Positions 29,171 through 45,109 of a DNA stretch of 64,000 nt are shown in pieces (position 1 is the stretch's first letter; each line of letters starts with the position of its first letter). The notes beneath the pieces were generated by a model. It made no database searches, had not been told where the DNA came from, and saw only the letters and a list, made by a program, of their open reading frames with translations. The stretch lies in the NCBI RefSeq assembly GCF_030908625.1, contig NZ_CP133133.1, positions 1,612,001 through 1,676,000 on the forward strand, read 5' to 3'. Source of the stretch: Paludicola sp. MB14-C6 (GTDB taxonomy: Bacteria > Bacillota > Clostridia > Oscillospirales > Ruminococcaceae). A program made the position numbers and the translations under genes.

Positions 29171-30298
29171 ATGGATATTGTCCCCCTGATTACAATAGAT
29201 TTTGTTGCAATTGTTATATTGATGCTATCGATTTGTATGGTACAAAAAAACGGTACAATTTCGCAATTCGAAAACCGCCTTTATATAACTGCTTGTTTCT
29301 TAACAATAGCAATTATCGTTTTAGAGATGCTTGATGTGTTTCTTGAAATGAATAGTGATTTCAAGTTGGTTTCATTTCATAAAATTGTGAATATATTAGG
29401 TTTTGGATTTTGTCCTTTAGTTCCCTACTTAATGTTAATGTTTCAAAATGAAAAATACAAGCATAAAGTTCTTACAATGCTTCCGTTTGTTTTGAATTTA
29501 TTTGTTGTAGCATGTAGCTATTTTACGGGATTTACTTTTCAAGTGGATACACAAAATCATTATACAAGAGGCCCTTGGTTTTTTATAACAGCTTTTGTTT
29601 GCTGCTATTATTATGTTTTGTTAGCCTTTGAAATCTTTTGTTCGCATACAAAAAGAGAGCGAAATGAGCAAATCTTTATTTATTATATCATATCTCTGCC
29701 TGTTGTAGGATCTATTATCCAAATTGTTTTTCCTAAGGTACTGTTGATTTGGAGTTGCACTGCAGTTTCGCTCATGTTCTATTATCGTTTTGTAAGAGAA
29801 GCTGGACTAAAATTCGATCCGTTGACAAATGTATTTACTCGTGCAATGCTAGATGCTCAAGTTGCGCTTTATAATTGTGGCAATAAGGCTTTACCTACAG
29901 TATCGGTTATTGTATTTGACTTAAATGATTTTAAAAATATTAACGATATCTATGGGCATGGTATAGGCGATTTTGCATTGCAACTGTCTGCTCAAATGAT
30001 TTGTGAAAGCTTTTCGTCCTTAGGAAAATGCTATCGATTCGGTGGAGATGAGTTTGTTATTATTTGCGATAATAAATCAGAACAATCTATTCTTCAAGCC
30101 TTGAATGAGCTTGATCAAAAAGCAAAAAATATTATGATTAAAAATAAAAAGCTCATATCGTATGCTTATGGATTTGCTTCATTCAACAACAAAAAGCATA
30201 AAACATTTCAAGATGTTTTACAAGATGCAGATGAACAAATGTACTTTAACAAAGCAAAATATAAAGCAAGTCAATTTTTAGAAATCATGAAGCCATAA
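29171..30298 (+). CDS. Membrane GGDEF protein (diguanylate cyclase)
   Basis: 375 residues. The first ~205 residues form about seven membrane helices, similar to 7TM sensor regions found before signalling domains. The GGDEF domain begins near residue 217 (DPLTNVFTRAMLDAQ); the active site is intact (CYRFGGDEFVII), as is the metal-binding Asp region VFDLNDFKNINDIYGH. It should make cyclic di-GMP from GTP. The RxxD product-inhibition site is not evident. AGAGGTGATGAG ribosome site; the guanylate-kinase-like gene ends 37 bp upstream. Confidence 0.92.
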   Translation: MDIVPLITIDFVAIVILMLSICMVQKNGTISQFENRLYITACFLTIAIIVLEMLDVFLEMNSDFKLVSFHKIVNILGFGFCPLVPYLMLMFQNEKYKHKVLTMLPFVLNLFVVACSYFTGFTFQVDTQNHYTRGPWFFITAFVCCYYYVLLAFEIFCSHTKRERNEQIFIYYIISLPVVGSIIQIVFPKVLLIWSCTAVSLMFYYRFVREAGLKFDPLTNVFTRAMLDAQVALYNCGNKALPTVSVIVFDLNDFKNINDIYGHGIGDFALQLSAQMICESFSSLGKCYRFGGDEFVIICDNKSEQSILQALNELDQKAKNIMIKNKKLISYAYGFASFNNKKHKTFQDVLQDADEQMYFNKAKYKASQFLEIMKP

Positions 30299-41666: not shown

Positions 41667-41697
41667 ACTGGGTGTACCCTTTCGGATACACCCCCTT
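41667..41697 (+). terminator. Terminator after the VOC gene
   Basis: GGGTGTA...TACACCC hairpin with T run CCTTTTTA. The same stem recurs at 44649-44674 and 45084-45109. Confidence 0.9.
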
Positions 41698-42962: not shown

Positions 42963-43544
42963 CTAGTATATTGTTTGATGAGTACCTACAAGTAAAAATT
43001 CGTTTGCATCAGCATTGATAACCTTACTCATCCAATCGTTTCCTACTTCTTTATTTACAGTAATCTTTACAGTAACTTGGATCCATCCACCGTTTGGAGC
43101 TACACCATTTTCATAGTATCTGTCTGTAACATTAGGATCTACTGCAACTTTTCTTGTTTGAGAAGTAACATTAACTAACTCTACGCTTATAGCCTTATTA
43201 TCTAGACCAGCTAATTGACGATTAAATGCCACTGTAATATCACCCTTAAGTGTGCCATAGTTTGCAATTGTTGCTACTCTTTCAAAAGTATCTCCAGGTT
43301 TCACATTCTCAAATGATAAAGTTTTTGCTTCTTTGCTCTTGACTTCTGTAGCTTTAGATGTTGCCACCCACTGATCTTTACCTGCGTCAGTTGCCCAAAA
43401 TACTGCAGTATCCAGTTTACCCATTGTAATGTTTACTTGATCAGTTAATGCATCTGTGTCTGTAAAATAAGCGTGAGTACCGAATCCTCCCATTCCTGTA
43501 ACTAGAGCAGCTGCTACCAATAGACCAATAATTTTTGCGTTCAT
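42963..43544 (-). CDS. tasA: TasA/camelysin-like secreted matrix protein
   Basis: 193 residues from the ATG at 43544, which is 9 nt after TGGAGG; an in-frame start upstream is rejected. The N-terminus NAKIIGLLVAAALVTGMGGFGTHAYFTDTD is a SipW-type signal peptide: hydrophobic, then the AYFTD motif found in TasA, CalY and related fibre-forming biofilm proteins. The mature part is beta-rich (LSFENVKPGDTFERVATIANYG). It is secreted and processed by the SipW peptidase encoded just upstream. Leader motif and possible ribosome-site occlusion are described separately. Confidence 0.85.
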   Translation of the reverse strand: MNAKIIGLLVAAALVTGMGGFGTHAYFTDTDALTDQVNITMGKLDTAVFWATDAGKDQWVATSKATEVKSKEAKTLSFENVKPGDTFERVATIANYGTLKGDITVAFNRQLAGLDNKAISVELVNVTSQTRKVAVDPNVTDRYYENGVAPNGGWIQVTVKITVNKEVGNDWMSKVINADANEFLLVGTHQTIY

Positions 43545-43555
43545 AAAATCAACCT

Positions 43556-43583
43556 CCATTAAAATTTTTTATAATATTAATGG
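43556..43583 (-). promoter_or_regulatory. Possible ribosome-site-sequestering stem before tasA
   Basis: CCATTAA (minus strand, 43583-43577) can pair with TTAATGG (43562-43556), which runs into the GAGG of the tasA ribosome site. CCATT is also the 3' arm of the outer stem of the upstream RNA motif, so the two folds exclude each other. Confidence 0.5.
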
Positions 43584-43650
43584 CGTGGGTTCACTATTAG
43601 CTCCACATAATCCAAGTGACCATATACGGACTATGCTTCAACGCACCATT
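43579..43650 (-). ncRNA. Candidate riboswitch, tasA copy
   Basis: A 72-nt region on the minus strand. Outer stem: AATGG.GCGT pairs with ACGCCATT. Inside is the same motif as the sipW leader, including GAAG, TGGTCACTTGG and TGGAGCTAATAGTGAACCC. GGTCACT pairs with AGTGAACC, and CATA(G) pairs with (T)TATG across it, giving a pseudoknot. It lies between the sipW stop and the tasA ribosome site. Confidence 0.6.
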
Positions 43651-43662
43651 AAGATTGACGAA

Positions 43663-44391
43663 TTAAATACTTACTTCTAGCTTTTTATTTTTGCTAACTT
43701 GTTTGTCAACCTTTTTCTTTTTCATAATTTCCTTTATCAATTCCTTAACGATAAAATACATGAAAATTAGACCTATGAGTCCTAAAAATTTAAAATCTTG
43801 AAATTTTGCTGCTACATATCCAAAGTAAGGAATATGAAATCGATATCTTGATACTAAGTTCTCTTTTGTTACTACTTTTTCATCAGCCGCTTTATTTGCA
43901 TCACCTTTTGTAACGAAAGAAGCCCCCCCATCTTTTACTTGCATAACCCTATGAGTTACGAGCATTCCGCCCTCTTTAAAAGTAATTATGTCTCCTTCAT
44001 GTATTTTACTTGAGTTCTTAACTACCTTTCCAATTACCAAATCATGCACCTTGAATTTTGGTAGCATACTGTCACTCAATACATTTAAGTACGTGTTTCC
44101 AAGTATCGTAGGTATATAATTTATATCTTTTCTCATTTTTATGCTCTGGAAGGACAAAATATATACAATAATTAACAATAGACATATAATATATCTTTTA
44201 ATCATTGTTTTAGTAAATGCTTTTTTCAAAAATACTCTTGTTCCGTTTATTTGAATTTTATTTACAAGATCTTTTTCCCCATCGGATAGATTCTGGTTTT
44301 CTATACTATCAATGCTACTTGCATTTTCTGGAATATCTTGTTTCTTGTTTTTTACCACATTCTTAAATATTTCTATTCTACTGTTTTTCAC
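43663..44391 (-). CDS. sipW: Signal peptidase I, SipW type
   Basis: 242 residues, longer at the N-terminus than usual (about 75 polar residues before the first membrane segment). The catalytic Ser lies in LSDSMLPKFKVHDLV (SDSM), and the His in LVTHRVMQV, the Ser-His dyad of ER-type signal peptidases rather than Ser-Lys; a C-terminal membrane segment follows. SipW cleaves the special signal peptides of TasA-family proteins; tasA follows 118 bp downstream. An attenuator-type leader precedes it. AAGGAGG ribosome site. Confidence 0.88.
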   Translation of the reverse strand: MKNSRIEIFKNVVKNKKQDIPENASSIDSIENQNLSDGEKDLVNKIQINGTRVFLKKAFTKTMIKRYIICLLLIIVYILSFQSIKMRKDINYIPTILGNTYLNVLSDSMLPKFKVHDLVIGKVVKNSSKIHEGDIITFKEGGMLVTHRVMQVKDGGASFVTKGDANKAADEKVVTKENLVSRYRFHIPYFGYVAAKFQDFKFLGLIGLIFMYFIVKELIKEIMKKKKVDKQVSKNKKLEVSI

Positions 44392-44410
44392 TAAGCTTAC
44401 CTCCTTGGCT

Positions 44411-44450
44411 AAAATAAAAACTCTAATTCATAAAAAATATGAATTAGAGT
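44411..44450 (-). terminator. Leader terminator before sipW
   Basis: Perfect 13-bp stem ACTCTAATTCATA/TATGAATTAGAGT with a 5-nt loop, followed by TTTTATTTT on the minus strand. It lies between the promoter at 44521-44549 and sipW, so it works as an attenuator. Confidence 0.9.
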
Positions 44451-44508
44451 GGGTTCACTATTAGCTCCATCTATACCAAGTGACCAAATACAGAATAGAC
44501 TTCTTAAC
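44443..44508 (-). ncRNA. Candidate riboswitch, sipW copy
   Basis: A 55-nt core matching the tasA copy at 46 of 55 positions. Elements: GAAG, TCTAT (pairs with ATAGA), GGTCACT (pairs with AGTGAACC), TGGAGCTAAT. The interleaved order gives an H-type pseudoknot. The 3' end overlaps the 5' arm of the terminator at 44411-44450. The outer stem is weaker here than in the tasA copy. Confidence 0.6.
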
Positions 44509-44520
44509 TTTCTTAAATAG

Positions 44521-44549
44521 AAAGTAACATATTGAAGACTATTTGTCAA
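44521..44549 (-). promoter_or_regulatory. Promoter of the sipW-tasA operon
   Basis: TTGACA, 17-bp spacer, TACTTT on the minus strand. Predicted start near 44514, giving a 120-nt leader that contains the motif and the terminator. Confidence 0.75.
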
Positions 44550-44648: not shown

Positions 44649-44674
44649 CGGGTGTACCCTTTCGGATACACCCG
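44649..44674 (-). terminator. Terminator hairpin bracketing element 3, with T-tract
   Basis: CGGGTGTACC...GGATACACCCG palindrome followed on the minus strand by TTTTAT. The partner copy at 45084-45109 has its loop in the reverse orientation. Confidence 0.75.
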
Positions 44675-45083: not shown

Positions 45084-45109
45084 CGGGTGTATCCGAAAGG
45101 ATACACCCG
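45084..45109 (-). terminator. Terminator hairpin of the Na+ pump operon
   Basis: CGGGTGTATCC GAAA GGATACACCCG, a perfect 11-bp stem with a GAAA loop. It is 7 bp after the stop of the small subunit gene; the mobile element follows immediately, so the T-tract is now 410 bp away. Confidence 0.75.

Follow-up and report, generated by a model that had tools for sequence, protein, structure and literature searches.

Two c-di-GMP-II aptamers sharing an uncommon pocket combination lie in the leaders of sipW and tasA in Paludicola sp. MB14-C6

In C. difficile, class II riboswitches for cyclic dimeric guanosine monophosphate (c-di-GMP) have been described as switching pili and adhesins on at the level of transcription (PMC11477304), and tandem c-di-GMP-II riboswitches, comprising 59 doublets and 9 triplets, have been described upstream of single open reading frames (PMC9481103). 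The C. perfringens sipW-bsaA operon, which is needed for pellicle biofilm, encodes both a TasA-like matrix protein and a SipW peptidase (PMC7395162). Here, we describe a locus of Paludicola sp. MB14-C6 in which two c-di-GMP-II aptamers (Rfam family RF01786) occupy the leaders of a sipW and a tasA gene. It lies in a 64,000-nucleotide (nt) stretch of contig NZ_CP133133.1 (positions 1,612,001 to 1,676,000, forward strand), referred to as the window, whose first letter is position 1 in all coordinates below. A matrix operon thus carries two members of a known riboswitch class, both with a pocket combination that is recurrent yet uncommon; the riboswitch class is not new, and what is new is the sipW-tasA target operon and a possible pocket variant. 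We propose, with a probability of roughly 0.78, that the two elements are c-di-GMP-II riboswitches controlling the sipW-tasA matrix-fibre operon in series.

The minus strand from 42963 to 44521 holds, in this order, an aptamer, a terminator, a sipW-type signal peptidase gene, a second aptamer and a gene for a TasA/camelysin protein. Scanning the window against Rfam 15 with cmscan matched both aptamers to RF01786, whose gathering score is 53.5, over the full length of the model:

44438..44521, minus strand: c-di-GMP-II aptamer 1, sipW leader (RF01786, 54.0 bits, all 84 positions)
43573..43656, minus strand: c-di-GMP-II aptamer 2, tasA leader (RF01786, 56.4 bits, full 84-position model)

The second match starts 7 nt past the sipW stop codon. 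Within the 1.3 kb scanned around the aptamers, RF01786 is the only Rfam family to pass its gathering score, and an RF01786 search of the genome at E values up to 0.001 returned no copies besides these two. The original prediction, made from the letters of the window, had correctly placed both copies on the minus strand in the sipW and tasA leaders, but took them for a riboswitch class not yet described. Comparison with Rfam, named beforehand as a check, returned a described family, the outcome set to refute that reading: since both copies exceed the gathering score (56.4 and 54.0 versus 53.5), an unknown class is ruled out. That the elements are riboswitch aptamers holds, and the suggestion of cyclic dinucleotides as ligands was apt.

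Counted from GAAG to GAACCC, the two cores are 53 nt long, agreeing at 44 positions and differing at 9, which fits the 55 nt and 46 identities first described once the two following letters, common to both, are counted. Helix P2 comprises 8 bp in the Rfam model (tasA, CATAGTCC/GGATTATG; sipW, TCTATTCT/GGTATAGA, containing one U-U mismatch), and eight of the nine differences fall within it, the ninth being a loop base. The predicted concentration of differences in a pairing helix therefore stands, whereas the helix is 8 bp long rather than 5 and takes up eight differences rather than seven. Three P2 pairs are altered on both sides and still paired (U-A/C-G, C-G/A-U and U-A/G-U), as had been noticed, and the interleaved helix GGTCAC/GTGA..CC, rightly read as a pseudoknot, is the P3 pseudoknot of the RF01786 family, with its strands paired in both copies. 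Across 139 family members (the pocket sample defined below), P3 pair 40-68 is G-C in 65, U-A in 52, A-U in 20 and A-A in 2, and pair 42-66 is A-U in 101, G-C in 37 and G-U in 1, counts biased towards pairing because the strands were located partly by pairing. Covariation is thus seen in P2 between the two copies and in P3 in the pair types across members. A 37-nt pattern that covers both copies has two exact matches (0 mismatches) in the window and was absent from 100 shuffles with up to 3 mismatches allowed. The copies resemble RF01786 over the whole 84-position model, with P1, the 8-bp P2, the P3 pseudoknot and the GGAG and UGG core, as well as in their leader location and in the terminator on the P1 3' strand; they differ in having C70/A73 for A70/G73, in their sipW and tasA targets and in being split by a gene. 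At 43644-43648 (minus strand), the tasA aptamer is without the A that normally follows P1, a gap relative to the model that by our own reading corresponds to A13 in 3Q3Z numbering.

The two genes are as follows:

43663..44391, minus strand: sipW-type signal peptidase, 242 amino acids (aa), GTG start (NCBIfam TIGR02228 above cut-off)
42963..43544, minus strand: TasA/camelysin family protein, 193 aa (Pfam PF12389 and NCBIfam TIGR04088 above cut-off)

The sipW product scores above the cut-off of the wider signal peptidase I model and below those of the SipW equivalog model NF046067 (90.6; cut-off 190) and Pfam Peptidase_S24 (23.2; cut-off 23.3). The tasA product carries a SipW-dependent signal peptide (NCBIfam TIGR04088), so that a SipW peptidase adjoins a TasA/camelysin protein with a SipW-type signal peptide, the arrangement of a sipW-tasA matrix operon. 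The accessible text of PMC7395162 on the similar C. perfringens operon names a riboswitch once, in a cited title on another organism. Our literature searches combining c-di-GMP or riboswitch with TasA, SipW or camelysin found, in the text accessible, no report of such sipW-tasA control.

The sipW leader contains a terminator that competes with P1 of the aptamer:

44420..44450, minus strand: intrinsic terminator with a T tail, its 5' arm being the P1 3' strand of aptamer 1 (terminator scan)

This terminator starts at A73 itself and has 13 pairs and the tail TTTTTATTTTA, its hairpin alone having an energy of -15.2 kcal/mol; the scan, covering 2.6 kb, returned 3 terminator-like sites versus 1.0 expected. 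At high levels, c-di-GMP would bind each aptamer and lock P1 and the P3 pseudoknot. In the sipW leader, P1 would then capture the terminator 5' arm and transcription would proceed, making this an ON switch.

In the tasA leader, the competition involves the ribosome-binding site:

43646..43652, minus strand: TTAATGG, P1 5' strand of aptamer 2
43577..43583, minus strand: CCATTAA, common to P1 and to the hairpin masking the tasA ribosome-binding site (sequence and free-leader fold)
43553..43562, minus strand: TTAATGGAGG, a repeat of the P1 5' strand that includes the tasA Shine-Dalgarno sequence (sequence and fold)

CCATTAA pairs alternatively with the TTAATGG of P1, a helix that has nine pairs when the aptamer is folded by itself, or with the TTAATGG at the tasA ribosome-binding site. 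In the free leader fold GGAGG is nearly all paired, and when P1 is forced its first three bases become open (unpaired 0.62-0.75). P1 would thus sequester CCATTAA, which otherwise masks the Shine-Dalgarno sequence, and translation would start, so that this gate probably acts on translation, again as an ON switch. Because both leaders have such P1 alternatives, the ligand is predicted to activate: transcription before sipW and translation before tasA. The predicted direction is that described for the C. difficile class II switches (PMC11477304). If the pair is co-transcribed, tasA would pass two gates for one signal, which would give a steeper response, and the fibre protein and its peptidase would be produced in the sessile, high c-di-GMP state. 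Like the tandem c-di-GMP-II riboswitches, two switches would here serve one ligand and one gene; those of PMC9481103 are consecutive before one ORF, whereas here sipW lies between them and a transcriptional platform is combined with a probably translational one. For a TasA-type biofilm matrix, both the fibre protein and the peptidase that exports it would then be under direct RNA control, most likely by c-di-GMP, and at two levels within one short gene pair.

Several observations weigh against this proposal. The sipW P1 is weak, being seen neither in unconstrained folds nor in folds with P3 removed, and the sipW fold with a forced 5-bp P1 lies at -12.1 versus -32.6 kcal/mol for the free fold, about 20 kcal/mol higher. 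The tasA leader likewise favours the masked fold (-27.5 versus -22.8, a difference of 4.7 kcal/mol). The forced folds of both leaders count neither ligand nor P3, which is worth about -7 as a duplex in the sipW leader. Even with P1 forced, the last two GGAGG bases remain paired in a local hairpin (0.18 and 0.03 unpaired). In addition, the tasA copy is missing the usual post-P1 A; pocket positions 70 and 73, both listed ligand contacts, are altered; and a candidate promoter, if used, would start transcription at about the sipW P1 5' strand:

44521..44549, minus strand: candidate promoter TTGACA-17-TACTTT, -35 perfect, -10 poor (by eye)

This candidate is absent from the list of our consensus promoter scan, which returned 17 sites versus 13.8 expected, and we therefore base no reading on that scan. 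Given the weakness of the sipW P1, only a co-transcriptional mechanism paid for by the ligand would be workable there, and both switches would have to act co-transcriptionally or draw on ligand-binding energy.

The altered pocket positions lie on the 3' strand of the pseudoknot:

44450..44458, minus strand: aptamer 1, 3' pseudoknot strand and pocket, GTGA-A-C-CC-A (G65 U66 G67 A68 A69 C70 C71 C72 A73 in 3Q3Z numbering)
43586..43594, minus strand: aptamer 2, 3' pseudoknot strand and pocket, GTGA-A-C-CC-A (A69, C70, A73)

The ligand contacts listed for 3Q3Z are A13, A14, U37, G39, U60, A61, C68, A69, A70, C71, C72, G73 and A74 (PMC7288161), and the run C68-A69-A70-C71-C72-G73 in this list fixes the numbering on the family consensus. 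The pocket sample holds 139 aptamers from 92 genomes, including the two window copies; one came from the family search, the others were among the phylum-draw matches listed, of which the sample omits the weakest, as it does all unlisted matches. Positions 69/70/73 read A/A/G in 115 of the 139, G/A/G in 7, A/C/A in 6, A/C/G in 4, A/A/U in 3, and U/A/G, A/C/U, A/U/G and A/A/C in one each. Both window copies are A/C/A instead of the majority A/A/G; as 24 of the 139 members deviate from the latter, it is not a strict criterion. The changes are coupled: of the 11 members with C70, 6 have A73, which none of the remaining 128 has (Fisher 5e-8), and a U40-A68 pair is present in 11 of 11 versus 41 of 128 (P 1e-5), both tests ignoring kinship. 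These six A/C/A copies represent four genomes, each of a different family, and the eleven C70 copies nine genomes. In an alternative register with GTGAACCCA, the strand could have a bulge of a single A, or of two A's if U40 is left unpaired; simple substitution would be favoured by the A/C/G and A/U/G members, each seemingly one step from A/A/G. In the class II pocket, positions 70 and 73 thus change together in nature and offer a handle on ligand specificity, as G20 does in class I. Most likely, A69/C70/A73 is a pocket variant that still binds c-di-GMP, perhaps with altered affinity. As a side observation, the 5' pseudoknot strand of the seven G/A/G members (L078, L094, L121, L122, L123, L126 and L131) reads CGGTCGC or CGGTTGC in six cases and CGGGCGC in L131.

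The A/C/A form recurs elsewhere: in total we found 9 copies, spread over 6 genomes and 4 families. A pattern search of 59 genomes from the class of one carrier, G235, picked up 6 copies, distributed over 4 genomes and including three new ones (in G641 and G642), and the same pattern in the phylum draw, nearly identical in its genomes to the RF01786 phylum draw, was found in 3 of 398 genomes, all found before (G231, G235 and G373); the form is therefore uncommon. All nine copies score best with RF01786 within its clan, and of the seven outside the window six exceed the gathering score and the seventh reaches 48.2. In G235, each of the two copies lies ahead of a multihaem cytochrome gene, one with 11 and one with 5 CxxCH motifs, both matching cytochrome families in Pfam; the loci are L143 (G235:C11:28000-40000) and L144, and two GGDEF matches, one degenerate, lie in the same cluster. 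In G373 and G231, which belong to different families, the switches precede proteins with GGDEF and HD (HD_5) domains, the GGDEF domain being degenerate in G231; these targets are genes of c-di-GMP-turnover type. One G642 copy precedes a hemerythrin-domain protein, and the other and the G641 copy each precede a 179-aa protein, the one in G641 without a Pfam match. Judged by eye, several of these copies have a terminator (twice in G235, once in G642) or a possible masked ribosome site downstream. Our literature searches identified no description of the A/C/A form and, for c-di-GMP-II riboswitches together with cytochromes, nothing at all; since a 2017 variant survey by Weinberg et al. in PNAS, reportedly the source of the c-di-GMP-II pocket variants, lay outside these searches, we do not claim the form as unpublished.

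The signalling proteins of the carrier genomes point to the ordinary ligand. Paludicola sp. MB14-C6 has 8 GGDEF matches, whereas the four genomes of the same genus searched, none with RF01786, have 1-3; six of the eight domains have an ordinary GHxxGD motif and two are degenerate. One of the eight is the C-terminal domain (GHGIGD, GGDEF) of a protein encoded in the window at 29171-30298 (plus strand). The residue after GHxxG is the specificity Asp, and Ser in its place marks a GGDEF domain of Hypr type, which makes cyclic GMP-AMP (cGAMP). Ser for Asp was found in none of the domains examined (8 of 8 in this genome, 10 of 10 in G235, 4 of 5 in G373 and 1 of 9 in G231), and a SMODS synthase in none of the six A/C/A genomes. 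With ordinary GGDEF domains and no variant synthase among those examined, c-di-GMP is the likeliest ligand. Class I c-di-GMP riboswitches score above cut-off in five of the six A/C/A genomes, the one without being Paludicola sp. MB14-C6; its single match (31.1; cut-off 35) was judged to be chance, and the 1.7 kb behind it contains no frame of at least 60 aa on its strand.

With this genome counted in both cases, RF01786 is present in 2 of the 197 family genomes and 1 of the 8 genus genomes, and a match was found in 108 of 398 genomes of the phylum; draws of more than 40 genomes used stricter filters, by which some weak matches are lost. SipW-like peptidases are common in the family, occurring in 60 of the 197 genomes, but the next best match falls far behind, at 36-41% over a portion of the protein, and a sipW scan of named genome contigs gave one distant locus at 32% identity (L004). 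In the phylum draw, TasA is found in 2 of 398 genomes, this one and a doubtful one (E 4e-4, 24% identity), and in the family of the latter only that genome has it (1 of 54); a TasA-conservation search of plasmids and viral contigs gave no match. The closest named relative, 63% identical, comes from Clostridium sp. MB05 and belongs to the TasA family. A horizontal origin of the sipW-tasA operon is likely.

Because positions 70 and 73 are ligand contacts and change in a coupled manner, ligand specificity is in question. The aptamers might constitute a third pocket variant beside the Rfam variants c-di-GMP-II-GAG and -GCG of the same clan and answer to another cyclic or linear dinucleotide such as 3',3'-cGAMP or cyclic dimeric adenosine monophosphate (c-di-AMP), a reading that we consider improbable. 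GAG and GCG are pocket variants on the same scaffold and, by our own reading of their names (G69, A70 or C70, G73), fit the same 69/70/73 code; the window copies, with A at 69 and at 73, do not match that pattern. Further points in favour of a ligand switch are that 69, 70 and 73 are all contacts in 3Q3Z and that the G20A mutant of class I can bind cGAMP (PMC7288161). The coupling itself, with A73 found only with C70 and C70 only with U40-A68, agrees with it, as do the two cytochrome targets of G235: cGAMP-sensing class I variants control multihaem cytochrome genes in Geobacter. If the switch were real, another dinucleotide would turn on matrix fibres in this genome and, in a distant relative, multihaem cytochromes. 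However, the GGDEF and SMODS results above yield no producer of such a ligand among the proteins examined, two of the targets are GGDEF-HD proteins, and RF01786 remains the best clan match of every A/C/A copy.

Less probable still is that the aptamers, acquired with a horizontally transferred sipW-tasA operon, are decaying or have lost ligand binding. The rarity of RF01786 in the genus and family, scores that barely exceed the cut-off, the weak sipW P1 and the Clostridium origin of one of the nearest TasA relatives would all fit this reading; yet the three doubly changed pairs still pair, the core outside P2 is identical except for one loop base, and the A/C/A pocket recurs in three other families, several copies being followed by terminators or possible masked ribosome sites. 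For a previously undescribed class, which retains virtually no probability, nothing speaks beyond the fact that an earlier reader did not recognise the family, and the full-length RF01786 matches have already refuted it. Control of the operon by two c-di-GMP-II riboswitches is thus the reading we prefer.

The large gene upstream of the pair encodes a decarboxylase beta subunit and is unrelated. A 26-nt palindromic hairpin, CGGGTGTATCC..GGNTACACCCG, which was absent from 100 shuffles, occurs with at most 2 mismatches at 44649-44674, 45084-45109 and 41669-41694, and two of the three copies flank about 410 bp upstream of sipW.
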